Assembly: GCA_012031565.1 (NCBI GenBank)
Contig: JAAUUM010000014.1
Span: forward strand, 1 to 37,618
Reading direction: 5' to 3'
DNA: 37,618 nucleotides
From: Synechococcaceae cyanobacterium SM2_3_2
GTDB lineage: Bacteria; Cyanobacteriota; Cyanobacteriia; Thermostichales; Thermostichaceae
A program made the position numbers and the translations under genes. The notes beneath the pieces were generated by a model, which worked only from the letters and a program-made list of their open reading frames with translations, was not told the origin of the DNA and ran no database searches. Positions 1 to 24,386 of the stretch are shown here, one piece after another; position 1 is the first letter of the stretch, and the number at the start of each line of letters is the position of its first letter.

Positions 1-315
1 TCGGTGATAAAAGCTGCATGGTGTTAGCGGTTCAAGCAGCCGATTTGGCCGTGACCACCATTGAGGGGCTGGCACCCGACGGCAACTCACTGCCTTGCAA
101 CAGGCTTCTGGGAGCGCCACGGTCTCCAGTGTGGCTATTGCACCCCGGCTATGGTGCTGGCTTTGACTGATCTGCTTGATCGCAACCCCAACCCCACCGA
201 GGCGGAGATTCGCATCCACATAGATGGCATTCTCTGCCGCTGCACTGGATACCAAAAAGTTGTGGAGGCAGTGCAATACGCCGTGAAGCAAGCAGGTGAA
301 AGTTTGAGGGTTTGA
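1..315 (+). pseudogene. Molybdenum hydroxylase [2Fe-2S] small subunit, 5'-truncated by window edge and frameshifted
   Basis: This is the C-terminal part of the iron-sulfur subunit of a xanthine/aldehyde dehydrogenase-type enzyme, which passes electrons from the Mo centre to FAD. The all-helical second [2Fe-2S] domain is clear: QCGYCTPAM supplies the CxxC pair and CRCTGY the CxC pair. The reading frame is broken twice. Frame 3 gives SCMVLAVQA and [10 protein letters not shown] up to about base 94, frame 2 gives LQQA (95-106), and frame 1 gives [12 protein letters not shown] from 106 to the TGA at 313-315. Two single-base deletions about 12 bases apart explain this. The N-terminal ferredoxin-like domain lies outside the window. 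It heads a cluster with the other two subunits (3120-6449). Family assignment is firm. Whether the lesions are real decay or sequence error cannot be decided here. Confidence 0.85.
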
Positions 316-431
316 GAGTTATTTTGCTCCAATTGTTCTGAAAACTCACTGACTACATGATGGGTTAAAGGTTTTCTGCTTCTGTTTGCATCGAAAACTG
401 GTTGCCTACTGACTCAACTACGAAGGTGCTT

Positions 432-1184
432 ATGCAACTTGAAGCAGCCAAGGTTTTGATTACGGGAGCCAATGGCGGCATTGGACAGCAGTTTATTCAA
501 GCACTGCTGGCGGCGGGGGTGAGCAAGATTTACGCTGCAGCCCGAAAGTTGGAGGCGCTAGAGCCGATTGTGTCCCTGGATCCCACCCGCATTGTTCCGA
601 TTGGTCTGGATGTGACAATGCCTAAGGGGGTAGAGCAGACGGCGGTTCAGTGCTCCGATGTGACGCTGCTCATAAACAACGCAGGGGTCAGTAAAGATGT
701 AGGGCTAATCGCTGCCGATAGCACCGAGGGGGCGCGGCTGGAGATGGAAACCAACTACTTTGGCATGCTCAACATGTGTCGGGCGTTTGCGCCGATTCTT
801 AAGTCCAATGGGGGCGGCACCATCTTAAATATGCTGTCACTGGTCTCGAAGGTGAATTTGCCCTTTATGGGATCCTACTGCGCCTCAAAAGCGGCCTGCT
901 TGTCACTGACCCAGGGTATTCGGGCGGAGCTGGCAGATCAGGGCACCCTGGTGGTGGGGGTTATGCCCGGTACAGTGGATACGCCTTTTGCGGTGCATTA
1001 TCCACCGCCGAAGGTGCCTCCAGAGGAGGTGGTGCGGGTGGCCTTGCGGGCTGTGGAAGACGGCGTGGAGGATGTCTACCCCGGTGAACAGGCGACTTAT
1101 ATGGTGGACATGCTTCTGAGGGATCCCAAGGCGGTGGAGCGGCAGGTGGCTGGGCTGCTGCCGGAGCTATATCCGTTTGCTTAG
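432..1184 (+). CDS. SDR-family NAD(P)-dependent oxidoreductase
   Basis: A 250-residue classical short-chain dehydrogenase, soluble and cytoplasmic. The nucleotide-binding motif TGANGGIG lies at the N-terminus, LLINNAGVSK gives the NNAG motif, a serine in the LSLVSK stretch fits the catalytic Ser, and YCASK is the catalytic YxxxK. Length is normal for the family. I chose the ATG at 432 because beta-strand 1 (AAKVLITGA) follows directly; a TTG 30 bases upstream is in frame but adds nothing typical of the fold. The gene sits between the Mo-hydroxylase small subunit and its maturation genes, so interconversion of an alcohol and carbonyl upstream of the hydroxylase is a reasonable inference. The substrate is unknown. 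Confidence 0.88.
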   Translation: MQLEAAKVLITGANGGIGQQFIQALLAAGVSKIYAAARKLEALEPIVSLDPTRIVPIGLDVTMPKGVEQTAVQCSDVTLLINNAGVSKDVGLIAADSTEGARLEMETNYFGMLNMCRAFAPILKSNGGGTILNMLSLVSKVNLPFMGSYCASKAACLSLTQGIRAELADQGTLVVGVMPGTVDTPFAVHYPPPKVPPEEVVRVALRAVEDGVEDVYPGEQATYMVDMLLRDPKAVERQVAGLLPELYPFA

Positions 1185-1262
1185 CAATCTCTTGCAAGGA
1201 GATTGCTCATATCGAACATTGCCCACCCTAGAGCACCTACCCTTTCATCCATCAACTTCCCT

Positions 1263-2477
1263 ATGAAATTGGTTCTCTCCGATATTGATCGCTGGCTGGC
1301 CCAGGGGCACGAGGTAGCCCTGGCAACGCTGGTGGCGACTATGGGGTCGAGTCCCCGCGAGGTGGGGGCGACTCTAGCGGTGAATAGTGCTGGGGAAGTA
1401 GCCGGCTCGATCAGCAATGGCTGTTTGGAAGGGGTGCTGGTGGAGGAAGCGCTGGGGGTGATCGCTACCGACAGCCCCCGACTTCTCACCTTTGAGCCGC
1501 CCGACAACGGGGAAACCGATCTGCTGAGCCTGTCCCTGGGGTTAACCTGTGGGGGCACCATGCAGGTGTATGTGGAGAGATTAACCTCCCCCTCCAGAGC
1601 CGGACAATTGCCCCTGTCAGTGCTTTTGGAGGTGGTTCGCAACGCCAAGCAGCATCCGGTGGCGATCTGTACGCGGCTGCGAGTGGTGGATGGAGAGGGC
1701 AATCGCCCCTCAGAATCCCCAAATCTAGACACTTCCGCTCCTGACAAGCTGGTGGTGTTTGAGGATGGCCAGTGCCTGGGTAGTTTGGGTAACCCCGGTA
1801 TCGATCACGCCGTCGCGAACAAGGCTAAAGGGCTATTAGGGCAAGGTCAGAGCCACCAAAGTCAGTTTGGACTCCAAGGCGAGTGCGGCCACAGCGATGT
1901 TGCAGTTTTTATCGAAGCATTGACCGCGCCACCCCACCTTTTGATGTTTGGGGCAGTGGCTTTTAGCCGAGCCCTATGCCAGTTTGGCCGATTGTTGGGC
2001 TACCAAACCACCGTGTGCGATGCAAGATCAATGTTTGCGACCCCAGCCCGCCTGCCCGAGGCTGATAGCCTCGAAACCCTCTGGCCTCAAGACTACTTTG
2101 AGCAGTATGGCGCAACCATTGGCGATCGAACTGCCATTCTGGTACTTACCCACGACCCCAAATTCGATATCCCAGCTCTGGAGCAGGCGGTGAAGACCAC
2201 GGCCTTCTACATTGGCGCGATGGGGAGCCGCAAAACCCACGCTGAGCGTCTGGCGCGGTTGCGAGAAGCAGGGCTGAGCGAGACCCAAATCCATCGCATT
2301 GCTGCCCCCACGGGGTTAGATCTAGGTGGTCACACCCTTGAAGAAACAGCGCTATCTATTTTGGCAGAAATGGTAGCCCTACGCCACGGGCGGCAAGGAG
2401 GGCGATTGGCTCACAGCCGCGAGCCTATTCATAACGTGTCCATCCAGGAACCACAGGTTCAGGAGGTGTGGCGATGA
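1263..2477 (+). CDS. XdhC/CoxF-family molybdenum hydroxylase maturation factor
   Basis: A 404-residue protein of the XdhC family, chaperones that bind and sulfurate molybdenum cofactor before insertion into xanthine-dehydrogenase-type enzymes. The N-terminal XdhC/CoxI domain is seen in GSSPREVGATLAV and GSISNGCLEGVLVEEA, and the C-terminal Rossmann half runs from about residue 220 (HLLMFGAVAFSRAL to FYIGAMGSRKTHAERL). The usual glycine-rich turn GAGxxG reads GAVAFS here, so nucleotide binding may differ. ATG 1263 is chosen over an in-frame TTG at 1203 because the conserved domain begins right after it. The stop overlaps the next start in an ATGA, so it is translationally coupled to the MocA-like gene. 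Confidence 0.88.
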   Translation: MKLVLSDIDRWLAQGHEVALATLVATMGSSPREVGATLAVNSAGEVAGSISNGCLEGVLVEEALGVIATDSPRLLTFEPPDNGETDLLSLSLGLTCGGTMQVYVERLTSPSRAGQLPLSVLLEVVRNAKQHPVAICTRLRVVDGEGNRPSESPNLDTSAPDKLVVFEDGQCLGSLGNPGIDHAVANKAKGLLGQGQSHQSQFGLQGECGHSDVAVFIEALTAPPHLLMFGAVAFSRALCQFGRLLGYQTTVCDARSMFATPARLPEADSLETLWPQDYFEQYGATIGDRTAILVLTHDPKFDIPALEQAVKTTAFYIGAMGSRKTHAERLARLREAGLSETQIHRIAAPTGLDLGGHTLEETALSILAEMVALRHGRQGGRLAHSREPIHNVSIQEPQVQEVWR

Positions 2478-3127
2478 GCGTGGCGATTGCCATTCTGGCC
2501 GCAGGGCACGGCTCACGGTTTGGGGGGGCTCAGCCCAAGCCCTTGGTGCTTTGGAGAGGCATTCCGCTACTGGATCATGCTATCTCTGCCGCTCTTGCTA
2601 GCGGAGCTAGCCCGGTGGTGGTGGTGGTGGGGTATCAGGCCGATCAAGTGATTCTCCGTGTGTCCGCCCGGGTTCAAACAGTGGTCAATCTCAAGTGGCA
2701 AGAGGGGTTGGCCTCCAGTTTGAAAGCCGCCCTGATTGCCCTGGAATCCCTGGTGGATTTGGCTGGAGTCTGCATTGGCCTAGCGGATCAGCCCCTGATT
2801 GGAACAAACTCGTATCGCCGTTTAATCACCGCAGCAAACCAGGGAGCAGAGCTAGCCGTGGCCACCTATGACGGGCAGAGGCGCAACCCCGTTTACCTGA
2901 GCCGCAAGCTCTGGCCTCAGGTTATGCAGCTTACAGGGGACAGTGGCGCTCGTCAGCTGATGGCCACCCACTTGGTCACTGAAGTCTCCTGCGATGACAC
3001 TGGGGATCCCTTCGATGTCGATACCCCCGCTGATTTAGCGTATCTGTTAGCCCAGACACCTCGCCTACCGGCATATACCGCCATCCCACTCCCCCTCTCT
3101 CCATCCCACTCCCCCCACCATGACTAA
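2474..3127 (+). CDS. MocA-like molybdenum cofactor cytidylyltransferase (NTP transferase)
   Basis: A 217-residue MobA/MocA-type nucleotidyltransferase. The signature LAAGHGSRFGGAQPK (residues 8-22) is the NTP-binding loop, and GLADQPLIG matches the second conserved acidic motif. Relatives of the MocA branch attach CMP to molybdopterin to give the cytosine-dinucleotide cofactor used by CoxL-type hydroxylases. Placement next to an XdhC gene and the Mo-binding subunit supports that branch rather than the guanylyltransferase MobA. The start overlaps the XdhC stop (ATGA) and its own stop overlaps the large-subunit start by 8 bases, so these genes form one transcription and translation unit. The C-terminal tail is a short proline/serine-rich stretch. 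Confidence 0.85.
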   Translation: MSVAIAILAAGHGSRFGGAQPKPLVLWRGIPLLDHAISAALASGASPVVVVVGYQADQVILRVSARVQTVVNLKWQEGLASSLKAALIALESLVDLAGVCIGLADQPLIGTNSYRRLITAANQGAELAVATYDGQRRNPVYLSRKLWPQVMQLTGDSGARQLMATHLVTEVSCDDTGDPFDVDTPADLAYLLAQTPRLPAYTAIPLPLSPSHSPHHD

Positions 3128-5483
3128 CACCATTCTCGGCACCTCAGTTAAACGGCGCGAAGACCCCGAATTTCTCTCGGGACAGGCCAAGTTCACTGCC
3201 GACATCACTCTGCCCAACATGGCGCACATCGCGCTCCTCCATAGCCCTCACGCCCACGCGCTGATCAAAGCCATTGACACCAGTGCCGCATTAGCTATGC
3301 CGGGGGTGATTGACATCATTACTGGGGCCGATACCGCTGCCATTCTGCCGCTGCCGGTGATCATGAACCCCAGTGGGGCCAAGGCCAAATTTCCGCCCCA
3401 CCCTTGGGGGGTACCCGCCGCCCAAACGGTTCTGGCGACCGATCGCGTCCGCTACGTGGGCGAACAAGTAGCCGTGGTGGTGGCCGAAACTCGTCAGCAA
3501 GCCTACGACGCCCTGGACGCCATTCGTGTTGACTACGAGCCCCTGCCTCTAGTGCTAGACGCTCGCTCAGCCCTAGAACCCAATGCCCCCCAACTCCATG
3601 ACACGGTGCCAGGTAACCTCAATCAGTACGTTAGCTACGGCGATAAAGAGGCGACCTTGAAGGCGATGGAAGAGGCCGACGTCGTGGTGCGGCAGCACCT
3701 GCCCTTTCAGCGGGTCATCCACCATGCAATCGAAACCCGCGCCACCATTGCCGCCTATGACTCCGACACCGAAGACTACACCCTCTGGACAAATAGCCAA
3801 ATTCCCCACGGCAACCGGTTTTTGCTCTCTCAGCTGGTGATGGGCATTCCCTACAACAAGCTGAGAGTGGTTGCACCCCACATTGGCGGTGGATTTGGGT
3901 CGAAGGGTTACCTCTATGCCGACACGGCGATCGCTCTATTCCTAGCCAAGCGCGTCGGTCGCCCGGTGAAATGGGTGGACACCCGCACCGGTCTAGCCCG
4001 CACTACCGTCCAAGCCCGAGGGCAGGATATGGACGGAGCGATCGCGGGTAATCGCGACGGTATAATTACCGCCCTCTACTGCACCAACTACTCAAACCTG
4101 GGAGCCTACCCCGCCACCAACGGCCCTGGGGCACCTACTAGCCTGACGGGCCGTAGTATCACTGGAGCCTACGCTATTCCTCACCCCTTCTACGAGGTTT
4201 ACTGTGCCTTCTCCAACACTGTGTTGGGAGGGCCAATTCGCGGGGCCGGGCGCACCGAGGGACTGTACCTGATAGAACGCTTGGTGGACTTGTTTGCGGC
4301 GGAAATTGGCCTGGATCCCGTGGAGGTGCGGCGCAAAAATTTCGTGCAGCCTGACCAGTTTCCCTACGCCAACGGACTGGGCTGGGTCTACGACACCGGC
4401 GACTACGAAACCGCCCTGGATAAAGTTCTGGCCATAGCTAACCTAGAGAATCTGGAAGTGGTCAAGGCAGAAGCCAAGAGCAGGGGCAAACGGCTGGGGG
4501 TGGGTGTCAGTTCCTATGTGGCGGTCACTGGGGTTGGCCCTTCCCGCTTTATGGGACAAGAGATTGGGCTGAATGGCAGCACCTGGGGCAGTGCCCACCT
4601 ACGGGTACATCCCACTGGCGATATTTCTCTCCAGATCGGTAGCCAACCTCATGGCCAAGGCCATGTCACAACCTTTTCGCAGATCGTAGCCGAAGAACTG
4701 GGGGTCGAGCTGGAGCAGATCGAGGTGCTGCACTCTGATACAAGAGGGGCTGTCTACGCCCAGGGCAGCTACGGCTCACGTTCATACAGCGTAGAGGGGG
4801 GCACGGTATACCTAGCCTGCCAAAAGGTGCTGACCAAGGCCAAGCAGATGGCGGCTCATATATTTGGCGTGTCCGAGGCAGAGATTATGGTCGATCACGG
4901 CAAATTCTCAACCCAGGCCAATCCTGAGGAAGTGAAAACCATCAAAGACATCGCTCTCGCCCTCTGGTACGCATGGGATCTACCCCCCGGCATGGAGCCA
5001 GGGCTAGAGGTAATCACTTTCTTCGACCCGCCGGACTTTAGCTACCCCTTCGGTAGCCACGTGGCAATCGTTGAGGTAGATGAGGAAACTGGCGAAGTCG
5101 CCGTGCTGCGCTACGTAGCCGTGGACGACTTTGGCACTGTCGGCAACCCCATGGTGGTGGATGGCCAGACCCACGGCAACCTACACCTAGGCATCAGCCA
5201 AGCACTGGTGGAAGAGGTGATCTACGACAACCAGGGTCAGATCGCCACCGCCGACTTCATGACCTACCCCATCGTCCGCGCCTCTCAGTTGCCCAACTTT
5301 GAGACCGATCGCACCGTTACCCCCACTCCCCATAGCCCCCTCGGGGCCAAGGGCGCAGGTGATGTGCCGGTGAATGGGGTACCTCCTGCGATCGTCAGTG
5401 CGGTATGTAATGCCGTCGGCGTGCAGCATATCGATATGCCCCTGACGCCGGAGAAGCTGTGGCGAGCGATGCAGTCGGGTTGA
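3120..5483 (+). CDS. Xanthine dehydrogenase-family molybdopterin-binding large subunit
   Basis: A 787-residue catalytic subunit of a Mo hydroxylase, normal length for CoxL/XDH-type chains. The N-terminal a/b hammerhead domain starts at SVKRREDPEFLSGQAKF. GGGFGSKG and the GPIRGAGR segment mark Mo-cofactor binding, and HGQGHVTTFSQI is the second conserved cofactor loop. The active-site loop is GPIRGAGR, close to the AYRGAGR of so-called form II enzymes, and not the AYRCSFR of true CO dehydrogenases. The position where the family has its catalytic Glu (GVGE pattern) appears to read GAGDVP, an Asp by eye alignment. Partners are the small subunit (1-315) and FAD subunit (5637-6449). The substrate, whether aldehyde, purine or another heterocycle, cannot be read from sequence. 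Confidence 0.92.
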   Translation: MTNTILGTSVKRREDPEFLSGQAKFTADITLPNMAHIALLHSPHAHALIKAIDTSAALAMPGVIDIITGADTAAILPLPVIMNPSGAKAKFPPHPWGVPAAQTVLATDRVRYVGEQVAVVVAETRQQAYDALDAIRVDYEPLPLVLDARSALEPNAPQLHDTVPGNLNQYVSYGDKEATLKAMEEADVVVRQHLPFQRVIHHAIETRATIAAYDSDTEDYTLWTNSQIPHGNRFLLSQLVMGIPYNKLRVVAPHIGGGFGSKGYLYADTAIALFLAKRVGRPVKWVDTRTGLARTTVQARGQDMDGAIAGNRDGIITALYCTNYSNLGAYPATNGPGAPTSLTGRSITGAYAIPHPFYEVYCAFSNTVLGGPIRGAGRTEGLYLIERLVDLFAAEIGLDPVEVRRKNFVQPDQFPYANGLGWVYDTGDYETALDKVLAIANLENLEVVKAEAKSRGKRLGVGVSSYVAVTGVGPSRFMGQEIGLNGSTWGSAHLRVHPTGDISLQIGSQPHGQGHVTTFSQIVAEELGVELEQIEVLHSDTRGAVYAQGSYGSRSYSVEGGTVYLACQKVLTKAKQMAAHIFGVSEAEIMVDHGKFSTQANPEEVKTIKDIALALWYAWDLPPGMEPGLEVITFFDPPDFSYPFGSHVAIVEVDEETGEVAVLRYVAVDDFGTVGNPMVVDGQTHGNLHLGISQALVEEVIYDNQGQIATADFMTYPIVRASQLPNFETDRTVTPTPHSPLGAKGAGDVPVNGVPPAIVSAVCNAVGVQHIDMPLTPEKLWRAMQSG

Positions 5484-5636
5484 GACCTCATCCCCCACCC
5501 CCTTCCCTCCAGGGAGAGAAGACCCAGAGGACACCCCCAAAATCACCAATCCAAAATTTCCTGATGGCCCTTACCCCCAGCCCCTTGCTGTCTGGGAGGT
5601 GGAAGCCAGAGAAAACCTCCCTACCCCCGAGCCGCT

Positions 5637-6449
5637 ATGCTTCCCACTACCTTTGACTACGCTGCCCCAGACACCCTGGATGCCGCCCTAGCCTTACTGC
5701 AAACTCCCGGTGCCCAAGTCTTGGCCGGTGGGCATAGCCTGATTTTAGAGATGACGGCTAAACGGATGGCACCGTCACTGGTAGTAGATTTGCGCCATTT
5801 ACTGGGGATGATAGGCATAACCCCAATCGAGGGCGGTCTGCGAATTGGGGCGCTAACCCCCCTGTCCCAAGTGAGGGGGGAAGGGATGATTCAGGCAAGT
5901 TACCGGGCTTTGGCTGAGGCGGCAGGGCTGGTGGGCGATGCTCAGATCCGCAATCGGGCTGTGATTGGCGACCCAGTTTCCTACGATGGTTTGACCAACG
6001 GTCTGCTGGCGGCATTTCTGGTACTGGAGGCTGGCTTTGTGTGGGCCAGCGGTTCGGGGGAGATGCTCCACCGCAAACCGACCTTCAGGGCAGGGGAGGT
6101 GTTGAGGTCGATCGATCTTCCCGCCCTTTTTGGCAACAGCGCCTACGAGGTGCTGCCTCACGCCGCCAGCCAGTTCCCGATTGTCGGGGTAGCGGCCTAT
6201 GTGGAACAAGCTGACGATCAAATTCAAACCTGCCGGGTGGCGGTGACGGGCATTGGCATTCCTGCTGCTCGTTTGAGCAAGGTGGAAGAGACGTTGGTGG
6301 GCAAAGCCGCAACTCCAGAGAATTTGGCAACGGCAGCGGCGATCGCCACCATCTCTGCCCCCGCCGTCACCTCAGTCTCCCCCGACTACATGGCCCACCT
6401 AGTCAAGGTCTTCACTCGCCGTGCTCTGGCCCGCGCCAGCCACCAATAG
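5637..6449 (+). CDS. Molybdenum hydroxylase FAD-binding subunit (CoxM/XdhB-like)
   Basis: A 270-residue medium subunit that carries FAD between the Fe-S subunit and the electron acceptor. The N-terminal FAD_binding_5 domain shows the first flavin loop as AGGHSLILEM and the IRNR segment near residue 108. The second FAD loop, normally GGxxAHxDP, reads GDPVSYDG here, a notable divergence. The C-terminal CO_deh_flav_C domain covers about residues 165-267. It is separated from the large subunit by 153 bases of C-rich spacer without a gene. The ATG at 5637 puts the conserved FDYAAPDTLDAAL start at residue 5, as in relatives. Confidence 0.85.
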   Translation: MLPTTFDYAAPDTLDAALALLQTPGAQVLAGGHSLILEMTAKRMAPSLVVDLRHLLGMIGITPIEGGLRIGALTPLSQVRGEGMIQASYRALAEAAGLVGDAQIRNRAVIGDPVSYDGLTNGLLAAFLVLEAGFVWASGSGEMLHRKPTFRAGEVLRSIDLPALFGNSAYEVLPHAASQFPIVGVAAYVEQADDQIQTCRVAVTGIGIPAARLSKVEETLVGKAATPENLATAAAIATISAPAVTSVSPDYMAHLVKVFTRRALARASHQ

Positions 6450-6488
6450 ACCACTTTTGCCCACTGTCTTTTCTTTGGAGCCACCCCT

Positions 6489-7640
6489 ATGCCGACAGCT
6501 ATTCCTGGCCCCGACAACCTCACCAAGGACAGCGTAATCGAAGGATTTCGCACCAATCCTGCCGCTTTTACTACCGAGCTGGCGGCTCAGGAAGTGGGCT
6601 TTAAAGGCATGCCCTGGGACTTTAACGCCGAGCAGCAGGAGGGAGCTGCCGCCTTTACCCAGTCCACCACCACCCAAGATGGGAAACGCGCCAGCACTGC
6701 TGTCTGCTACGTTCGCCCCATTCTTGATCGCCCCAACTTCACCCTGATCACCCGAGCCCATGCTACCCGAGTAATTTTAAAGGGCACTAAGGCAGTGGGG
6801 GTGGAGTACCTTACCGACATCGGCAGCGGTACCCCTACCAGCCACCAAGTCGAAGCCACAGGGGAGGTCATTCTCAGCGCTGGGCCGTTTCAGTCGCCTA
6901 AACTACTGATGTTGTCTGGTATTGGCCCTGCAGAGCACCTCAAGTCCTTTGATATTCCAGTGGTGATTGACTTACCGGGGGTAGGCGAAAATCTGCAAGA
7001 CCACCTACTGGCCCGGGTCTGCTACACCACCACTGTGCCCCAGCACATCCCCAGCATTATCTGCGAGGCCAGCCTGTTTACCTACACCCGCCCTGATATG
7101 GGGGCCGCATCACCAGATTTACAATTTTTCTTTGGCGGCTTTCTATTCCCCGACCTGGGCACCACTGAGCCAGGTTTTACAATGTGCCCTGTGGTCACTC
7201 AGGCTCAGAGTGTAGGGGATGTGAAGCTGCGATCGTCTGACCCGCTGGAAGCTCCCATTGTACGCATGAACTACCTCTCCAGTGATGTGGATATGAAGGT
7301 TCTACTTTACGGGATCCAGCTAGCGCAAGAAATTATCCACACCAAAGCTTTTGATGGTATGCGCGGCAAGGAATTGATCCCCGGCCCTGAGGGCAAGGAC
7401 GAAGCCAGCCTACGCAACTATATTCGCAACACCTGCATCACCGACTGGCACCCCTCCTGTAGCTGCAAAATGGGCTACGACCTGATGGCCGTTGTCGATC
7501 CGCAACTGAGGGTGCACGGGGCCGAAAATCTGCGGGTGATCGATTCCTCGATCATGCCGTTTATCACGAACTGCAACCTCAACTCCACGGCGATCATGAT
7601 TGGCGAAAAGGGCGCGGATTTGGTGCTGGCGGATAAGTAG
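6489..7640 (+). pseudogene. GMC-family flavin oxidoreductase, N-terminal FAD domain missing
   Basis: The 383 residues match the C-terminal two thirds of a glucose-methanol-choline oxidoreductase, which is usually about 500-550 residues. Visible family landmarks are RASTAVCYVRP, GEVILSAGPFQSPKLLMLSG (the second GMC signature), GVGENLQDH, DWHPSCSCKMG carrying the catalytic His, and NSTAIMIGEKGADLVL at the end. The dinucleotide fold with GxGxxG that should open the protein is absent, and only 39 bases separate the gene from the upstream stop, so the first roughly 150 residues are gone. Without them FAD cannot bind in the usual way. It is probably a remnant, although its frame stays open and an ATG is present. 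Family members oxidise alcohols or sugars. Confidence 0.75.
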
Positions 7641-7652
7641 GTAGGCAGTTTT

Positions 7653-7674
7653 AGGAGGGGGAATCTCCTTTTTT
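7653..7674 (+). terminator. Rho-independent terminator after the Mo-hydroxylase/GMC cluster
   Basis: AGGAG and CTCCT form a 5-bp stem around a 7-base loop, followed at once by a T run (CTCCTTTTTT). It starts 12 bases after the GMC stop, in the right place to end the cluster transcript. Confidence 0.6.
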
Positions 7675-7792
7675 GGCGTTACCCCCAAGTTCCACTCTCA
7701 AGGGAAAAGGGATTTGGGGGCATTGACGAGTTATAGATTGCCGAGCTATGGGATGATCACTATCCATCATCGGAAATCTTATGAGAAGTTGC

Positions 7793-8245
7793 CTAGGGCA
7801 ATTGGGAAGGTTGCAGAGCAATTTTGACGGTATGCCAAGGGAGGATCGCACACTTGATTCTGGCGGGAGATTGGGCAATACCTTTCATCACATTCAATAT
7901 TCGGAATTCATGAGGGAATTCGCCTTCACCTCGCATCATGGCCTCAAATTTTTGAATTAAGGCCAGCGCCTGATCGGATGTTTTGCCAACCAAAGCCTCA
8001 GACATTAAATCGGCAGAAGATATGGATAGAGCACAGCCGTAGCCATCAAATTTGATATCTTCAATTTGGTGATTGCCTGGGCTAAATTTTAGGGTGATCT
8101 CGATCTGATCACCACAGGCAGGAATGTGCCCTCTATGAATACGATCAATGGGATCTGTCTTGCCCCGATGACGCAGACTTTTGGAACGTTCTAAAATCAC
8201 ATGATGGTAAAGATTACGATGACGAAGCTGAGACTCTGGAGTCAT
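7793..8245 (-). CDS. SufU/IscU-type iron-sulfur cluster scaffold protein
   Basis: A 150-residue U-type scaffold on the minus strand, on which Fe-S clusters are built before transfer to target proteins. The start resembles the family pattern LYxxVILxH (NLYHHVILERS). The three ligand cysteines are in PACGD, GYGCALS and RIKCAILPW, with the spacing of SufU. Helical text between the second and third Cys (SADLMSEALVGKT) also fits SufU. It faces away from the NTF2-like gene, with about 320 bases of shared upstream sequence. It lies close to a cluster encoding an Fe-S enzyme, but the opposite strand and intervening terminator mean it is a separate unit. Confidence 0.82.
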   Translation of the reverse strand: MTPESQLRHRNLYHHVILERSKSLRHRGKTDPIDRIHRGHIPACGDQIEITLKFSPGNHQIEDIKFDGYGCALSISSADLMSEALVGKTSDQALALIQKFEAMMRGEGEFPHEFRILNVMKGIAQSPARIKCAILPWHTVKIALQPSQLP

Positions 8246-8566
8246 AGTAAATCTAGAATTTCGTTTAATCTAAACACTAGCAGCCTTTTTCCTAATTTTG
8301 TACTTCCCTTGAAAAACCCTACAAGGAGAATCGACGCAACCATTCCTTCAATCCTGTTGATAAGCACGACGGAAATCTGATGAAATCTTTATTTTTGTTT
8401 AACGCACGGTAGTTAAACCTAAGTCTAGGATAATGTAATGGAAGATCTCTATGTCTGATTAATTCCCTCAAAGGCTCATAGTTTTCTTAAGAAACAGTGG
8501 CAAAATTACTAGTAAAAAAATCTGTCTTGACCGAAAGCATTGACTGATCACTCTGGAGGCAAATCG
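8246..8566. other. Divergent intergenic region, no gene seen
   Basis: This AT-rich spacer separates the minus-strand sufU-like gene from the plus-strand NTF2-like gene and should hold both promoters. The only ordered structure I find is the dyad at 8397-8418 and a GATAAT hexamer at 8429-8434 that could serve as a -10 element. Confidence 0.5.
8397..8418. promoter_or_regulatory. Operator-like inverted repeat GTTTAAC-N8-GTTAAAC
   Basis: Two perfect 7-base arms, GTTTAAC (8397-8403) and GTTAAAC (8412-8418), flank 8 bases. The centre-to-centre spacing suits a dimeric helix-turn-helix regulator. It lies just upstream of a possible -10 hexamer GATAAT (8429-8434), so a bound protein would cover the -35 area of the NTF2-like gene. 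No known consensus is matched. Confidence 0.4.
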
Positions 8567-8959
8567 ATGAAAGGCATTCCCGATACAGCTCTTGGCCAGC
8601 TATACCGTGAGCATATTCAGCTCATTTTGGACAAAAATATTGAATCTCTGCTTGATCAATATACCGATGATGCTTTGCTGATCAGCAGCTTTATGAAAGA
8701 ACCTAAATACTATAAAGGACGTGAGCAGCTCAAGGAGCATATGCAGGGTATTCTCGGCATTGAAGGGCTAGAAACTGAAATCGCCTTTTGGGCTGAGACC
8801 GAAGACCCGCAAACATTAATGATCGTAGAAGCTATTACCCTGAACGCTGGTGGTCAAGAGGCAAAAATGCGCTTTGCCGACAGTTGGGTGCTGCGAGATG
8901 GCAAGATCGCCATCCATTTTGCCGGCATGACTCAATACCCTGATGGCACTGTGGCCTGA
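8567..8959 (+). CDS. NTF2/SnoaL-like cone-fold protein
   Basis: A 130-residue protein with the look of the NTF2-like superfamily: an N-terminal helix (LGQLYREHIQLILDKN), then IESLLDQYTDDALLIS, the usual first strand after helix 2, and a C-terminal sheet ending WVLRDGKIAIHFAGM. Members are either small enzymes or ligand-binding proteins, and no catalytic set is conserved enough to call. ATG 8567 is preferred because a strong ribosome site TGGAGG lies 8 bases upstream; the in-frame TTG at 8540 has none. It is a single gene or the first of a pair with the VOC gene 150 bases on. Confidence 0.7.
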   Translation: MKGIPDTALGQLYREHIQLILDKNIESLLDQYTDDALLISSFMKEPKYYKGREQLKEHMQGILGIEGLETEIAFWAETEDPQTLMIVEAITLNAGGQEAKMRFADSWVLRDGKIAIHFAGMTQYPDGTVA

Positions 8960-9108
8960 GAACATTTTAGAGGCAGTGCATAAAAGCCCTGCTCCTGGAT
9001 GACCTGGCTTGCCTGCCTCAGTTGTCCCTACCAATCCTTAACATTGCGGTGCGTTGAGAAACTACCGAAATATACACTACAGCTAATTTCGTATTCTAGG
9101 AGATTTCA

Positions 9109-9546
9109 ATGCTTCAAATTTTTTCCCAGTTGGCTATAACCTGCCAAGATCCAAACACCACTGAAAAATTCTATTGTGATTACTTTAACTTCAAGCGGGC
9201 CAGAGTGGCTAAATTGCCAGATGGAAACCAGATTGTGTTTATTAAAATGGCCGACAGTGGCTTTTATTTAGAGTTATTCAAAGCCAGCGAAACCAATCCT
9301 CTGCCCCCTGCGACCAATGACGGTTATACCTTTCCTGGTGTGCGCCACTTGGCTTTTAAGGTAGACAATGTCGATGCCAAATTGGCTGAATTGGGCGACG
9401 CCGCTAAGATTACCCTTGGCCCGCTTGATTTTGACGCTTGGATCCCTGGTTGGCGCACCGTATGGATCGCTGACCCCGATGGCAGAATCGTCGAAATCAG
9501 CCAGGGCTTTACTGATGAAGAGAACCCTCCCCTGATGGAGGTATAG
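9109..9546 (+). CDS. VOC-family (glyoxalase/dioxygenase fold) protein
   Basis: A 145-residue vicinal-oxygen-chelate protein. Two babab modules are visible: the first starts QLAITCQDPNTTEKFYCDYF and ends DSGFYLELF; the second starts GVRHLAFKVDNVDAKL and ends RTVWIADPDGRIVEISQ. The ends LELF and VEIS place the usual Glu metal ligands. In the first module the His found in glyoxalase I is not at the expected place (LAIT), while the second module keeps H in RHLAF. Metal-dependent isomerase, dioxygenase or resistance roles are all possible. AGGAG lies about 6 bases before the ATG. Confidence 0.78.
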   Translation: MLQIFSQLAITCQDPNTTEKFYCDYFNFKRARVAKLPDGNQIVFIKMADSGFYLELFKASETNPLPPATNDGYTFPGVRHLAFKVDNVDAKLAELGDAAKITLGPLDFDAWIPGWRTVWIADPDGRIVEISQGFTDEENPPLMEV

Positions 9547-9662
9547 AGGTTCTTGGTTCTTGCTCCTTGTGGGATCCCTATGGGACAGGGAAGGATAGGA
9601 CGAGATCATTGGGCAAACCCACCCCAAAAGCAATGTAATGAGAGCAACTTTGGGAAACGACG

Positions 9663-11554
9663 ATGACACAGCTTTGGAAAGAGGGGATCGAACCGACCAC
9701 CAGTGCCGTCCGAGCAGCGGCAGGCTTTCAGGCTGACTTGCAGCACGAACTCGACTTTTTGTTTACCCGAGAGATTGAGTTTCGCCAAGAAACAATCTAC
9801 TTCATCATCGTCGATCGCTTCTTTCAGGGGGGCAACCCAATCCAGGATCCAACCCGGAGCTATTTGACCCCACCCGAACTGCCTGGGGCAAATATTGGGG
9901 CGGTGACTTGCCGGGGGTAATCGATAAACTCAACTATCTCAAAAATCTTGGTATCACTGCTCTGTGGATTTCGCCGCTGTTTGAACAGGTGGAAGACCTG
10001 ATGCTGGGCCAGTACACAGCCATGCATGGCTACTGGACGAAGGACTTTAAGCGCATCAATCCCCGTTTTTTGCCTCCCGGTGCCTCAAATTCCCTGAGTA
10101 CTTGTTCCGCTGTCACGAGTCTGGTGACGGCCATGCACGCTCGCGGCATGAAGCTGATACTTGATATTGTCTGCAACCACAGCAGCCCCAATGTAAATGG
10201 CCAAAAGGGCCGTCTCTACGATGATGGGGTTCTGATTGCTGATTATTATATTGCTGATTATTATAACGACAGCAAAAACTGGTACTAGCACAACCCTGAA
10301 ATCACTGATTGGGAAGACGAACACCAGCTGCTCTACTACGAGATGGCGGGGCTGGCCACATTTAATGAGTCCAATATCAACTACCGCAATTACATCAAAG
10401 CAGCCATCAAGCAGTGGCTCGACTTGGGGGTAGACGCCCTACGGGTCGATACGGTCAAGCACATGCCCCTGTGGTTTTGGCAGGAGTTCACCAGCGACCT
10501 CCGCACCCACAAGCCCTCCACCTTTATTTTTGGGGAATGGGGGTTTGGCAAACCTTGGGAGCCCAACTGCGTGCGCTTCACGAACCACTCGGGCATGTCG
10601 ATTCTTGACTTTGCTCTATGTGAGGCAGTGCGGGCGGCGATCGCACGTCATGCCCCCGGCGGCTTTCATCGGGTGCAAGAGGTGCTGGCTTACGATAACG
10701 CCTACGACACCGCCACTGAGTTGGTCACCTTCATTGACAACCACAATATGCCACGGTTCCAAAGCCTCAACGGGGATCCGGCGGCACTGCACCTGGCTAT
10801 GGTGCTGATCATGACCTCACGGGGCATTCCCTGCATCTATTACGGCACTGAGCAGTACCTGCACAACGACACCAACGGAGGCAACGACCCCTACAACCGC
10901 CCCATGATGAAATTCTGGGACATTGACTCGCCCCTTTATCAACTGCTGCCCCAACTGGGCAAACTGCGCCGCCTGAATCCGGCGATTTCCCTGGGTAGCC
11001 AGGTGGAAAAGTATCTTACTGATGATATCTATTGCTACCTGCGCCGCTACCGTGACTTCCGTTGCTTTGTGGCACTGAACAAGGGCCCTGACACCACCAT
11101 TCAAGTGGCTAACATTGATTTGGGAGATGGCACCTACTTTTGTCCCCTCACCCGCCGGGAGTTTACGGTTTACAACGGCCAACTGCGCGACCTCTTGCTC
11201 AATTCTCAGGAGGCTATCGTACTCAGTTACTTTGGCAACCGGGTGGAGGGGCAAACCCTAGTACGCGCTCAGCTCAACGGCTACCGCACTCAGATTGGGG
11301 AGGAAGTAGTGGTGGTGGGCGACTGCCCCGAACTGGGTAACTGGGACATCGACCAAGCCTACGCACTAGAATACATCAATGACAACACCTGGTTTGGCGA
11401 GATTTCTTTCAACCAAACAGCGGGCAAGGCAGTGTGCTACAAATACGCCATTCGCCGTAATCGTGAAGCCCCACGCTATGAAAACCTAGTCAGCCGTCGC
11501 TGGATTTTGAGCGATCGCGGCACCGTGAGATGGCGCGACACCTGGGCGGGCTAG
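9663..11554 (+). pseudogene. GH13 alpha-amylase-like enzyme with C-terminal CBM20, disrupted
   Basis: When the breaks are read through, this is an about 630-residue GH13 (beta/alpha)8 amylase. It opens with IYFIIVDRFFQGG and shows GH13 region I DIVCNH, region II ALRVDTVKH (nucleophile Asp), region III FGEWG (acid/base Glu) and region IV FIDNHN. A CBM20 starch-binding domain follows from about 11240 (VVVVGDCPELGNWD). There are three defects. A 1-base deletion near 9883 shifts TPPELP out of frame from WGKYWGGDLPGVIDKL. An in-frame TAG at 10286-10288 follows NWY. The third catalytic Asp of region IV (normally DNHD) is Asn. A 15-base duplication (IADYYIADYY) sits just before the stop. The parts are ORFs 9663-9920, 9908-10288 and 10343-11554. 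It is most likely a decaying, formerly secreted or cytosolic alpha-glucan enzyme. Confidence 0.85.
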
Positions 11555-11669
11555 CATCCCCCTGATGGGAAAATTTTATCCAGTCTTTTGTCCCTAGAGC
11601 TAAAGATCTTCGAGATAGCGGCGTTCTGTTGGGCTTTAGGCAAGGGAACAGGGATCCAATCCAAGATCT
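11555..11669. other. Junction between HIP1-type and GGGATCCC-type sequence
   Basis: This short spacer lies between the converging amylase remnant and the HAS-barrel gene. The last GCGATCGC is at 11511 and the dense GGATCC series starts at 11651. I see no terminal inverted repeat, tRNA or att-like duplication in it, so the mechanism that joined the two blocks is not shown. Confidence 0.5.
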
Positions 11670-12311
11670 CTAAATCGAGAGCTTGCTGACAATGGCCCGC
11701 AGCTGGTCATAGTTTTCTCGCAACAGCACACTCAACTGCTGCCCGACAGCCACCAACCAGTCTCGGTCATAATGCACAATCCGATGGCAGTGCCTCAACA
11801 CCGCCGCCATCAGTTCTTCAGATGGGATCCCGGTCACCTGCAATAAGGTTCGTAAGAATCCCAGATCTTGGCAAAATTGAGCCACCGTCTCATCGGCACA
11901 GCGGTAAACCGGCTGATGAATCTGGGGCGGGCGAGGTGGCAAAAAATGATGGGTGCGCCGGGGTTCCGACCCGGTGGCAAAACCGACGATGGCCACCTGA
12001 AAATCGGTTCGTAACATGGCAAAGATCTGAGGTTGTTGATCCCGCAACTGGTCTGGGCTCAGCCCCAATGCCCGCACTCGATGCACCGCATCCACAGGCA
12101 CAATGCTGGCATGGCAGACCACCCCATAAATGTGATTGCCCGTCTCATCATCCTGAGATCGCACCCAACTGCCCAACGCGGGCACCGTCGGAAACGATAG
12201 GTCATCGGGATCCAAACATTGCGCCACAAAACCCGTTGTCGAAGCCTCCACCACCTCGCCGATATGATCCGCAGGTCGCAAGAGAGGATCGAGAGATAAT
12301 GGCAATCTCAT
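11670..12311 (-). CDS. HAS-barrel domain protein, conserved cyanobacterial
   Basis: A 213-residue soluble protein. The first about 110 residues resemble the HAS barrel found at the N-terminus of HerA-type ATPases and ATP synthase subunits: IGEVVEASTTGFVAQC, GSWVRSQDDETGNHIYGVVCHASI, then a strand ending FQVAIVGF. The rest is helical (LGFLRTLLQVTG, LRHCHRIVHYDRDWLVAVGQQL) with no ATPase motif. Standalone proteins of this shape occur across cyanobacteria and have no known function that I can cite. It is transcribed away from the amylase remnant and is the first gene on the GGGATCCC side. Confidence 0.55.
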   Translation of the reverse strand: MRLPLSLDPLLRPADHIGEVVEASTTGFVAQCLDPDDLSFPTVPALGSWVRSQDDETGNHIYGVVCHASIVPVDAVHRVRALGLSPDQLRDQQPQIFAMLRTDFQVAIVGFATGSEPRRTHHFLPPRPPQIHQPVYRCADETVAQFCQDLGFLRTLLQVTGIPSEELMAAVLRHCHRIVHYDRDWLVAVGQQLSVLLRENYDQLRAIVSKLSI

Positions 12312-12415
12312 AACTCCATTAAGCCCCTGAGAGAAATGGGAGGAGATTTGAAAGTCTTACCCTGGGTGAATCCTGGTAGGTACTCCGCTAGCCCTAGTTT
12401 AGCCATGATCACAAA

Positions 12416-12454
12416 CTTGTCAGTCTTTTGAGTTTTTGCCTTATCTCTGACAAG
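12416..12454 (-). terminator. Hairpin downstream of ktrB-like gene
   Basis: CTTGTCAG (12416-12423) and CTGACAAG (12447-12454) are perfect 8-base inverted arms with a 23-base AT-rich loop, 9 bases past the stop of the minus-strand potassium channel gene. A T run after the stem is short (TTTGTG on the minus strand), so termination is plausible but not certain. Confidence 0.4.
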
Positions 12455-12463
12455 GGATCCTGA

Positions 12464-13846
12464 TCACCCAATCAAAATCTGTTCTTCTGGAAAACTGACC
12501 AGTTGGCGGGGGGGCTGTTGGGCCAAAGCCAAAACGATGGTGAGAGCCCCTAATCGGCCCCAAAACATCATAAAGATAATCACAAGCTGGCCAAAGAGAT
12601 TCAGTTCTGAGGTGAAATTGAGGGTTAATCCACAGGTGGCAAAAGCTGAAATCACTTCAAATAAAGCGGAATCGAGATCAATATCATGAGTCACCAAAAT
12701 CAACCAAGTTGCCAGCAGGACGATAAAGAGAGATACCGTTAACACCGCCGAAGCTTTGCGTACCATGTCTGTGCCCAAGCGGCGTCCCCCAATTTGAACG
12801 GGGTCATGGCCTCTTGCATAGCCCCACAACGTCAACACGAGGGTGGCAAAGGTGCCCGTGGTAATGCCCCCTCCCATCGAAGCCGGAGCGGCCCCAATAA
12901 ACATCAAGATCATCATCAACAATTGACTCGGCGCAGTCAGATCGGTCAAGGATACCCCCGCAAACCCTGCTGTCCGGGCGGAGATAGACTGAAAGGTGGT
13001 TCGCAAGAGGCGGCGAGGCCAGGGATCCGTCAGTAGAGCTGAGCTGGTCGTGCTCTCGGCCAGAAATATCCCCAGCCCGCCCACAACAATCAGGATCATC
13101 GCCACCCATAGCGTCACCCGTGTGTGGAGGGATAGCCGCCGCTCCCGATGAAAGACCAAGACATCTCCCAGTACCGGGATCCCCAAGCCCCCCAAGACAA
13201 TCAGGGATCCCAAAATCAATAGTGTGACATTGTCAGTCGGCAGGCCATTCGGGTACTCGGGCAATCCCCCAAACAAATCGAAGCCCGCGTTACAAAAAGC
13301 TGACACCGAATGGAATAAGGCATAAAAGACAGCCCGACCTGGCCCCAGTTGATCCCGCCAATGCACCCACAAAAAAGCGGCTCCTATCAACTCAATCGTG
13401 GCCACCGTCAGGAGCACCCGTTGGGTCAGTTGCAGGATGGCCTCAGGTCGCAATAGGCCCAACGAATCGCAGAGGGCTTGCCGCTCCACCAAAGAGATCC
13501 GCCGTCCAATCAGGCGAAACAGCACCACCGCCATAACCATAAACCCGACCCCACCCACCTGGATCAATAACAACAGCACCACTTGCCCCAGCCCAGTCAG
13601 TTGCTGTACCGGGGTGATGATTGACAACCCTGTCACCGCCAGAGCAGAGGTGGCCGTAAATAAAGCTTCAATTGGGCTCAGCATTTGGCCTTGCCCCATA
13701 CCGGGCAACATCAACAACAACGTGCCGATGATCAACAAGATGGCCAGACCCAGTACCAAGCGCAGCGGCGTGGGGAAGCGTCTGAGTTCTTTGCTAGAAC
13801 TGTCTAGACCCCGTTTGCGGGTTGTCCGAATATGGTGAGAATCCAT
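12464..13846 (-). CDS. TrkH/KtrB-family potassium uptake channel subunit
   Basis: A 460-residue inner-membrane protein with four M1-P-M2 repeats, the pore-forming subunit of a Ktr/Trk system that imports K+, usually with Na+ or a gating ring subunit (KtrA/TrkA, not in this window). The four selectivity-filter loops are visible as TSALAVTGLS, SVSAFCNAGFD, SISARTAGFAG and VISAFATCGLT, each with its conserved Gly. The ATG at 13846 (MDSHHIRTTRKRG) gives a short basic cytoplasmic tail before the first helix. An upstream frame extension to 13966 would overlap the divergent pentapeptide gene and is rejected. Length matches KtrB better than the longer TrkH. Confidence 0.9.
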   Translation of the reverse strand: MDSHHIRTTRKRGLDSSSKELRRFPTPLRLVLGLAILLIIGTLLLMLPGMGQGQMLSPIEALFTATSALAVTGLSIITPVQQLTGLGQVVLLLLIQVGGVGFMVMAVVLFRLIGRRISLVERQALCDSLGLLRPEAILQLTQRVLLTVATIELIGAAFLWVHWRDQLGPGRAVFYALFHSVSAFCNAGFDLFGGLPEYPNGLPTDNVTLLILGSLIVLGGLGIPVLGDVLVFHRERRLSLHTRVTLWVAMILIVVGGLGIFLAESTTSSALLTDPWPRRLLRTTFQSISARTAGFAGVSLTDLTAPSQLLMMILMFIGAAPASMGGGITTGTFATLVLTLWGYARGHDPVQIGGRRLGTDMVRKASAVLTVSLFIVLLATWLILVTHDIDLDSALFEVISAFATCGLTLNFTSELNLFGQLVIIFMMFWGRLGALTIVLALAQQPPRQLVSFPEEQILIG

Positions 13847-13959
13847 TATGGGTGTGAGTTGAAACTGCTGGCCTTGCTCATTATCAGAGTTTTCTAGGCT
13901 GTTTCCCACAGGTCTGGGCCAGAGCAACCGCAGTGGCAAACCCAGCACAGGATAGACGG

Positions 13960-14490
13960 GTGGCAAAAGTTGAAAGCGTGACAGAGCTATGGCAACAGAT
14001 TGCCTTAGGAGAACGCTCCTTTGTGGGGATCCGGCTGCCCAAAGCTCAACTGACAGGATGTCGCCTCTGGGGGCTCAATTTGCAGGGGGCTGACCTGAGT
14101 CGGGCTGAGTTGGAGGGATCCAGTCTTTATCAGCTCAATCTGTCTCAGTCTGACCTCAAGCTGATTCGATTGAGTCGGGCACGTATGCACGGTATCAATC
14201 TACAGGGTAGCGATTTGCGGCTGGCGGTGGTGCGGGAGGCCCAGCTCCTGCAAGCCAACTTATCAGGGGCCAATCTCAGGGGAGCCATTTTGACCCAGGC
14301 GGTGCTGATTGGGGCTGATTTGTCGGGAGCCGATCTGCGGGGATCCCTGTTGCAAGGGGCAGATTTGAGGTTTACAAACTTACAGGGATGTTTGTATGAC
14401 GCCAGTACCCGTTGGCCCGACACCTTTAATCCCGCTCAAGCTGACATGCAACAGACAGGATCCCAAGACACAGGAGCTAAGACCCACTAG
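13960..14490 (+). CDS. Pentapeptide-repeat protein
   Basis: About 176 residues made almost wholly of A(D/N)LXX repeats, for example LNLQGADLSRAELEGSSL, LQANLSGANLRGA and GADLSGADLRGS, from about residue 35 to 145. Such repeats fold into a right-handed quadrilateral beta-helix. No signal peptide or other domain is present, and the function of most cyanobacterial members is unknown. I chose the GTG at 13960 with AGGAT 6 bases upstream; an in-frame GTG at 13933 would add nine residues of no clear merit. It diverges from ktrB with 113 bases between starts. Confidence 0.85.
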   Translation: MAKVESVTELWQQIALGERSFVGIRLPKAQLTGCRLWGLNLQGADLSRAELEGSSLYQLNLSQSDLKLIRLSRARMHGINLQGSDLRLAVVREAQLLQANLSGANLRGAILTQAVLIGADLSGADLRGSLLQGADLRFTNLQGCLYDASTRWPDTFNPAQADMQQTGSQDTGAKTH

Positions 14491-14493
14491 GCT

Positions 14494-14580
14494 CTGTGCC
14501 CACAGCCTTATAGCCTGTTCATCTGTGCCCACAGCCTTACAGCCTGTTCATCTGTGCCCACAGCCTTACAGCCTGTTCAG
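14494..14580. repeat. 29-bp tandem repeat, three copies
   Basis: Units start at 14494, 14523 and 14552 with exact 29-base period and one visible substitution (CCTTATAG in unit 1, CCTTACAG in units 2 and 3). The array begins 3 bases after the pentapeptide stop and ends 20 bases before the 3' end of tRNA-Cys. There are no spacers between units, so it is not CRISPR. Confidence 0.9.
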
Positions 14581-14599: not shown

Positions 14600-14671
14600 A
14601 GGTGGCGGCCAGATTTGAACTGGCGAATGGGGGCTTTGCAGGCCCCTGCCTTACCACTTGGCTACGCCACC
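14600..14671 (-). tRNA. tRNA-Cys (anticodon GCA)
   Basis: On the minus strand the 7-bp acceptor stem GGTGGCG/CGCCACC is perfect. The anticodon arm GGGGC-CTGCAAA-GCCCC carries GCA, and the T arm GCCAG-TTCAAAT-CTGGC is perfect. The discriminator base is U, the identity element of tRNA-Cys. CCA is not encoded. Total length is 72 bases. Confidence 0.96.
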
Positions 14672-23180: not shown

Positions 23181-24386
23181 ATGGATTTTGGAGTCGGATT
23201 CCTCTCGAACAAAGTAATGCTGCCGATCCTAGATTTTTTCTATGGCATCGTGCCCAGCTATGGCTTAGCGATCATCTTTTTGACCCTGGTGATTCGCTTT
23301 GCTCTCTATCCCCTCAACGTGGGATCCATCCGCAATATGCGAAAGATGAAGGTGGTCAACCCCCTCATGCAAAAGCGTATGAAAGAGATTCAGCAAAAGT
23401 ATGCTGATGATCCCCAGAAACTGCGGGAGGCTCAAAGCAAAATCTACAGTGAATTGCAGGTCAATCCGCTGGGGGGCTGTCTGCCTCTGTTCATCCAGAT
23501 GCCGGTGCTGTTCGCGCTGTTTGCCACCCTACGGGGATCGCCATTTGCCGCTGCCACCTTTGATATCAATCTGCAACTGCTGGAACCTCAGGCTGCTGCC
23601 GAGATCGTCTTTGCCCCCACCAGCTCTGCCCCCAAGACTGTCTTCTTGACCGAGACAACTCACCGACCCATCCTCTTGGTCAACCCCAAGGGATCCAAGT
23701 TGGCCGTCGGCGATCAGGTGCAGTTCCAGCTCCAGAGCGAAACCGGCATGCCGTTGGCGGATCTCTTGACTGAAACCGAGGCGGATCCGGCTCGACTCAC
23801 CCCCACTTGGGCGGTGACGAAAGGGGAAGATCGGGTTCAGCTGGAACCGGATGGCACTCTGGTGGCGTTGGCTCCAGGGGATGTGACGATCCAGGCTTCG
23901 GTTCCGGGTCTAGCCGCCGAAACAGGCTTCCTCTTCATCGAAAAGCTGGGCCATGTGGGCGCGTTTGACGAGGACGGCACCCCCAAGTGGGATATTTTGG
24001 GCATGATCGCCATCTTTGGGGCTAGCATTTTCGTCAACACCAGTTTGACTGCCAAAGGTAATGACTCTGCGGATGCTAATTCCAGCCAAAATTCTCTGAA
24101 TAAGATCACACCGGTCTTGCTCTCTGGGATGTTCTTGTTCTTCCCCTTGCCGGCTGGGGTGTTGCTCTACATCGTGGTCTCCAATATCTTTCAGACCGTT
24201 CAGACCTATATCCTCTCGCTGGAACCACTGCCGGAAAACCTGCAAAAGCTGGTGGATGAAGAACGGCAGACAGGTAAGGCCAGCGCCCAAGTGGTGGATG
24301 TGGAGGCTGAAGCTGTCAAGCCCAAAAAAAAGGCCAAGTCTGATGTGGTAGATACCGGTCGGGAATCCTTGCCGTTTGAACCTTAG
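23181..24386 (+). CDS. yidC: YidC/Oxa1 membrane protein insertase, cyanobacterial type
   Basis: A 401-residue insertase that places proteins into the plasma and thylakoid membranes with or without SecYEG. The conserved start MDFGVGFLSNKVMLPILDFF is followed by the coiled cytoplasmic loop KVVNPLMQKRMKEIQQKY and the transmembrane hairpin NPLGGCLPLFIQMPVLFALF. A lumenal insert of about 120 residues (near 130-255), beta-rich with a late Ig-like repeat (LEPDGTLVALAPGDVTIQAS), separates this from the last helices (MFLFFPLPAGVLLYIVVSNIF). Such an insert is normal in cyanobacteria. The tail is basic (KPKKKAKSD). jag follows 58 bases on, the usual arrangement. Confidence 0.95.
   Translation: MDFGVGFLSNKVMLPILDFFYGIVPSYGLAIIFLTLVIRFALYPLNVGSIRNMRKMKVVNPLMQKRMKEIQQKYADDPQKLREAQSKIYSELQVNPLGGCLPLFIQMPVLFALFATLRGSPFAAATFDINLQLLEPQAAAEIVFAPTSSAPKTVFLTETTHRPILLVNPKGSKLAVGDQVQFQLQSETGMPLADLLTETEADPARLTPTWAVTKGEDRVQLEPDGTLVALAPGDVTIQASVPGLAAETGFLFIEKLGHVGAFDEDGTPKWDILGMIAIFGASIFVNTSLTAKGNDSADANSSQNSLNKITPVLLSGMFLFFPLPAGVLLYIVVSNIFQTVQTYILSLEPLPENLQKLVDEERQTGKASAQVVDVEAEAVKPKKKAKSDVVDTGRESLPFEP

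Follow-up and report, generated by a model that had tools for sequence, protein, structure and literature searches.

A change of palindromic word marks the edge of a probable decaying genomic island in Synechococcaceae cyanobacterium SM2_3_2

The window analysed here is a stretch of 37,618 nt that forms contig C78 of the draft genome of a hot-spring-type cyanobacterium (3.93 Mb, 323 contigs, 89.8% complete). Its left 11.55 kb is very probably a decaying genomic island that came from at least one other cyanobacterium, most likely a HIP1-rich one. Word use, dinucleotide composition, and gene histories change together at one place, and the best reading of the change of palindromic word is that it marks an old gene import.

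Results

Palindromic words in the window

Exact counting located the HIP1 word GCGATCGC at 3927, 4038, 6339, 10637, and 11511 (the last site spanning 11511-11518) and nowhere right of 11550, as an earlier sequence-only reading of this DNA had counted. GGATCC occurred 10 times left and 109 times right of 11.55 kb, the latter slightly more than the approximately 106 given previously, and GGGATCCC occurred 3 and 40 times, respectively. When two Poisson rates were fitted to GGATCC, the best break was at 11,650, where the ln-likelihood gain was 17.8; none of 300 random placements gained more than 9.0. The dense run of GGATCC in native DNA starts with the copy at 11652-11657. The proposed sharp switch at 11511-11660 was thus reproduced by the fit; break positions from 9030 to 13020 all lay within 2 units of the best one, so that the words alone resolve the switch to about 4 kb.

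These counts were compared with those in synonymous-codon shuffles. The five HIP1 sites in the left genes (0.64 expected) and the 79 GGATCC in the right genes (25.4 expected) were each reached in none of 400 shuffles, whereas GGATCC in the left genes was near chance (8 observed, 5.0 expected, p 0.11). As the own-genome background, 409 windows of 11.55 kb were drawn from the right block and a sample of 20 contigs, partly picked because they carry HIP1. All 409 had more GGATCC than the 10 of the left block (minimum 13), and its five HIP1 sites were matched in contig C25 alone. GATC overall also switched, from 6.4/kb on the left to 12.6/kb on the right. The dinucleotide distance to the genome was 68 for the left block; the right block gave 18-28, and ten other contigs gave 17-53. 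Word use and composition of the left block are thus unlike those of the rest of the genome. GATC outside GGATCC and CGATCG was present at 8.2/kb in positions 11650-37618, about twice the expected density, and at 4.5/kb in the left block.

The resident word of the host

The own genome contains 5581 copies of GGGATCCC (1.42 per kb) against 36 of the reversed control word, together with 65 HIP1 sites. Genomes of the host family include ones with 3094-4959 copies of GGGATCCC and few HIP1 sites. Most other cyanobacteria are HIP1-rich whereas the host family is GGGATCCC-rich; one genome of the same order is HIP1-rich, with 8312 copies. Because the own genome and its family use GGGATCCC, this is the resident word, and it is the right block that is native and the left block that is the exception.

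With GGGATCCC as the resident word, the genome resembles those described for highly iterated palindromes: the word is in excess genome-wide, HIP1 is scarce, and a GATC methyltransferase gene is present, namely a Dam-family gene on contig C85 that scored above its curated cut-off and whose GATC specificity is predicted. Dam-type enzymes are present in nearly all HIP genomes, and GGGATCCC has been described as the highly iterated palindrome of Synechococcus JA-3-3Ab and JA-2-3B, at 1160 and 1345 copies per megabase against 23 and 19 of HIP1, respectively (PMC4390886). Word and family are the same here, and the published densities agree with our counts in the family genomes G006 and G001; the own genome belongs to another genus of the family than those two strains.

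Another genome of the family, G002 (genus g3), is dominated by neither word (392 GGGATCCC and 121 HIP1 in 4.4 Mb). In all six of its contigs sampled (L025-L030), GATC was present at 10.6-13.6/kb against about 3.9 expected, with no flanking base favoured. G002 thus combines an abundance of GATC with the lack of an extended palindrome, within a family that uses GGGATCCC.

Gene content of the left block

The HIP1-bearing, GGATCC-poor block, considered imported on the basis of words, dinucleotide distance, trees, and synteny, covers 1-11554 and has its left end outside the contig. All its genes are on the plus strand except one. At the contig end is a remnant of a 2Fe-2S subunit gene (9-303) with a frameshift near 90; in tblastn, the FeS proteins of loci L013 and L015 matched it in two frames, 9-95 and 88-303, at 56-62%. 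It is followed by an SDR oxidoreductase (402-1184; PF00106; 64-68% identical to its counterparts in the Nostoc and Calothrix clusters), an XdhC-type Mo-enzyme maturation factor (1203-2477; PF13478/PF02625; 51-52% to the Nostoc cluster), and an NTP transferase resembling MobA or Mo-cofactor cytidylyltransferase (2468-3127; PF12804; TIGR03310 below its cut-off). Next are the large, molybdopterin-binding subunit of a Mo-hydroxylase of the xanthine oxidase family (3120-5483; PF20256/PF02738/PF01315, orthologues, and tree) and the FAD subunit (5637-6449; PF00941/PF03450). Assignment of the large subunit to aerobic CO dehydrogenase CoxL form I was rejected, as it scored 647 bits with TIGR02416, whose cut-off is 991. 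Its motif reads PIRGAGR, which we take to be a form II-like active-site motif and not that of form I.

Downstream, a GMC oxidoreductase gene (6489-7640) lacks the N-terminal third including the FAD-binding start; GMC_oxred_N was matched only from position 89, and full-length relatives aligned from their residues 167-180 onward, at 6582. The sole minus-strand gene encodes a NifU-like Fe-S scaffold protein of low G+C (7793-8245; PF01592), which formed a long branch with no supported placement in its tree. A SnoaL-like protein of the NTF2 fold (8540-8959; PF12680; 80-81% identical to its counterparts in the Nostoc and Calothrix clusters) and a VOC/glyoxalase-fold protein (9109-9546; PF00903; 72-77% to four genomes) precede the last gene, an alpha-amylase with a CBM20 domain (9741-11554). 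The latter is a pseudogene with a frameshift near 9840 and an in-frame stop at 10286-10288; intact relatives of 630-642 aa matched it in two frames and read through the stop (tblastn). Three genes of the block are therefore broken (2Fe-2S subunit, GMC, and amylase). The amylase pseudogene also carries a perfect 15-base tandem duplication, ATTGCTGATTATTAT, at 10235-10264, located 21 bases upstream of the stop.

Relatives of the left genes

Orthologues of the Mo large subunit, 69-73% identical, were found in Nostoc, Calothrix, Phormidesmis LEGE 11477, and the genomes G268, G266, and G186. Among 386 genomes of the phylum, they were present in three, own one aside, and identity elsewhere was at most 33%. 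VOC had close homologues in 8 of the 386 genomes; three of the four genomes with VOC relatives at 72-77% also carry the Mo-hydroxylase. The host family was represented in both searches only by G001 and G003, from which the Mo subunit orthologue was missing (G003 has a 33% paralogue only). Both genes are thus patchily distributed and missing from the close relatives covered, as is expected of a genomic island.

Shared gene sets and order elsewhere indicate that the Mo cluster, SnoaL, and VOC belong together and are at home in other cyanobacteria. The clusters of Nostoc carneum NIES-2107, Calothrix membranacea FACHB-236, and Phormidesmis LEGE 11477, with large subunits 69-72% identical to that of the window, have SnoaL, the 2Fe-2S subunit, SDR, XdhC, and the Mo large subunit as neighbours, as here, and SnoaL of the Mo-subunit loci is 75-81% identical to the window copy. 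The order is not the same: in the window, SnoaL follows the Mo genes, and GMC, NifU-like, and amylase genes adjoin. In G268 and G266, VOC is present as well, at a distance of 4 to 20 kb from the Mo subunit; GMC, SnoaL, and VOC are ordered in G012 as in the window, and in genomes of the small-genome family f3 SnoaL immediately precedes VOC, again as here.

The relatives of the Mo-hydroxylase, SnoaL, and VOC genes, 70-81% identical, are restricted to few, mostly HIP1-rich cyanobacteria, as the sequence-only reading had supposed of the donor. Three carriers of VOC/SnoaL, however, fall in family f3, whose three word-sampled genomes are HIP1-poor. A plasmid origin was considered and dropped, since plasmid relatives of the Mo subunit reached only 44% and none of the ten best was cyanobacterial; SnoaL had two plasmid matches, in Runella (77%) and Nostoc (50%).

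Gene histories on both sides of the junction

In the amylase tree, the window copy fell in a 100/100 clade with four genomes of the families f6, f30, f34, and f42 (G235, G068, G012, and G188), and the host-family copies (G004, G005, and G007) sat apart from it. Constraining it with the host-family copies cost 53 ln-likelihood units and was rejected (AU p 0.0024). Its branch is long, as expected for a pseudogene, so that the exact nearest neighbour is unsure. The first gene to the right, 116 bases beyond the amylase and encoding a HAS-barrel protein (11670-12311, minus strand), grouped with the host-family copies (96/94) and with the order (99/98), and its GGGATCCC at 11824 is common to five family members. 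A native TrkH-type cation transporter (12464-13966, minus strand; PF02386) was 67-68% identical to host-family copies, and YidC (23181-24386, plus strand) grouped with the host family (SH-aLRT 92) and with the order (99). The last left gene thus conflicts with the host, as genes of genomic islands do, whereas the HAS-barrel and YidC genes follow it; these genes of the two sides do not share one lineage. The change of history thus falls in the spacer at 11555-11669 between the amylase and HAS-barrel genes.

This spacer contains a remnant, with stops, of an IS630-family transposase gene (11581-11636, minus strand), 80% identical over 56 bases to the start of a transposase gene at 8694-8749 of contig C82 of the own genome; the ORF on C82 matched NF033545 (transpos_IS630) with an E value of 2.3e-23. 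A remnant of a mobility gene therefore lies at the edge of the block, and the IS630 sequence perhaps took part in the transfer. Integrase, flanking repeat, and tRNA were looked for at the join and none was found; insertion at a tRNA or direct repeat, which is not required of all islands, is thus not seen at the right edge. A candidate flanking direct repeat (8437-8487 against 11658-11718) was dropped, as its score of 24 was exceeded by shuffles reaching 29. The only tRNA is tRNA-Cys (14600-14671, minus strand), 3 kb into native DNA; three tandem 29-base repeats (TCTGTGCCCACAGCCTTAYAGCCTGTTCA) occupy 14493-14579 just before its gene.

Donor word and resident word in the left genes

The HIP1 site at 3927-3934 is shared with orthologues in the same codons, with identical GCGATCGC in G268 (locus L066) and Phormidesmis LEGE 11477 (locus L015). 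At the positions aligned with the other four sites, the orthologues lacked HIP1. The left genes contained eight GGATCC, as against two in a set of 36 copies of orthologous genes with a total length of about 37 kb. GGATCC density was about 0.05/kb in the orthologues, about 0.9/kb in the island, and 4.2/kb in resident DNA. This is a hint that the left block is partly adapted and has spent some time in the host; alternatively, the true donor may simply avoid GGATCC less. The sequence-only reading held that the block had not yet acquired the local word; it is GGATCC-poor and near chance, but seems already to have gained some copies compared with orthologues.

Discussion

Words, composition, and the amylase tree as set against the native HAS-barrel and YidC genes all support the import of the left block that the sequence-only reading had proposed. 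Foreign DNA may have entered by recombination, perhaps with the help of an insertion sequence, and would retain the donor word until mutation replaced it; the resident genome would maintain or gain its own words in place, probably via GATC methylation and repair. Weighing against import are that five HIP1 sites are few, that four of them have no counterpart in orthologues, that the join shows neither integrase, flanking repeat, nor tRNA, that the left edge falls outside the contig, and that the IS630 evidence is one 56-base match.

The main rival is a chimeric contig, in which the left 11.5 kb would come from another cyanobacterium of the sample and would have been misjoined at 11.55-11.67 kb in assembly or binning. 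The genome is indeed a fragmented, incomplete draft, and composition and phylogeny break at one point, as they would in a chimera. We nevertheless consider it unlikely: the GGATCC content of the left genes relative to orthologues looks partly adapted, even if the donor rate may differ, and the junction match to another contig is too short and too poor to mislead an assembler. Moreover, C25 has a low-GGATCC, HIP1-bearing stretch in a contig whose other end shows host-type words. Loss of the local word from a native region, through relaxed selection in decaying genes, is highly improbable. Some left genes are broken, as it would have them, but the intact Mo subunit, XdhC, and VOC genes are just as word-poor, losing GGGATCCC would not create HIP1, and the trees, including the amylase AU test, and the rarity of the genes in the host family contradict vertical descent.

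A different question is whether the island has one source. The amylase and the Mo cluster differ in nearest kin, and the island may derive from one import or from several. Mo-hydroxylase/SnoaL/VOC, NifU-like, and amylase pieces may have been imported separately and lie side by side in a variable region, which we regard as a serious possibility of somewhat less than even chance. The amylase kin belong to families f6, f30, f34, and f42 and the Mo-subunit kin to Nostocales and Phormidesmis, the amylase has no Mo-cluster gene nearby in any of the four loci of its clade, and G+C drops from 59% to 42-49% at 7.7-9.6 kb. On the other hand, GMC, SnoaL, and VOC are ordered in G012 as in the window, and in G268, G266, and Nostoc either SnoaL or VOC is found close to the Mo subunit, which ties the first 9.5 kb together. 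Several imports are a variant of the import reading, not an alternative to it.

The case may be compared with the xenologous islands of Synechococcus elongatus PCC 7942, where imports are recognised by a shortage of the resident palindrome combined with unusual composition and gene kinship, as here (PMC3025956; oligomer method, PMC3497702). Detection of imports by HIP1 content is thus already published. In PCC 7942, however, the resident word is HIP1 and alien genes are without it, whereas in the present genome GGGATCCC is resident and HIP1 is found in the alien genes. The left block thereby also indicates what sort of donor it had. What is new is a clean example in which the foreign word can itself be seen.

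A second HIP1-bearing stretch was observed at 1-9146 of contig C25 (locus L045), with five HIP1 sites and zero GGATCC in sliding 4 kb windows over its first 9 kb. It encodes an Ssp/Dnd phosphorothioation system (PADLOC: the end of SspD, SspF, SspG, SspH, and DndA/SspA), with SspH split into four frames and the DndA-like gene running to 10369. This stretch, too, appears to be an imported island that has partly decayed.

Tentatively, and with the odds rather against it, palindromic words may turn over in place after transfer and could serve as a clock, with GATC excess arising first and the flanking word later, lineage by lineage. If so, the island keeps some donor HIP1 and is moving toward the resident GGATCC density; the GATC excess of G002 without a favoured flank, together with such turnover in the island, would suggest that GATC excess precedes the flanking word.

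The gene content of the island is itself ordinary. Where donor and host use different iterated palindromes, these show where an imported stretch ends and also what sort of donor it had. The difference gives a handle on the rate of word gain and loss as well, a matter relevant to the role of HIP sequences, which is still unsolved.
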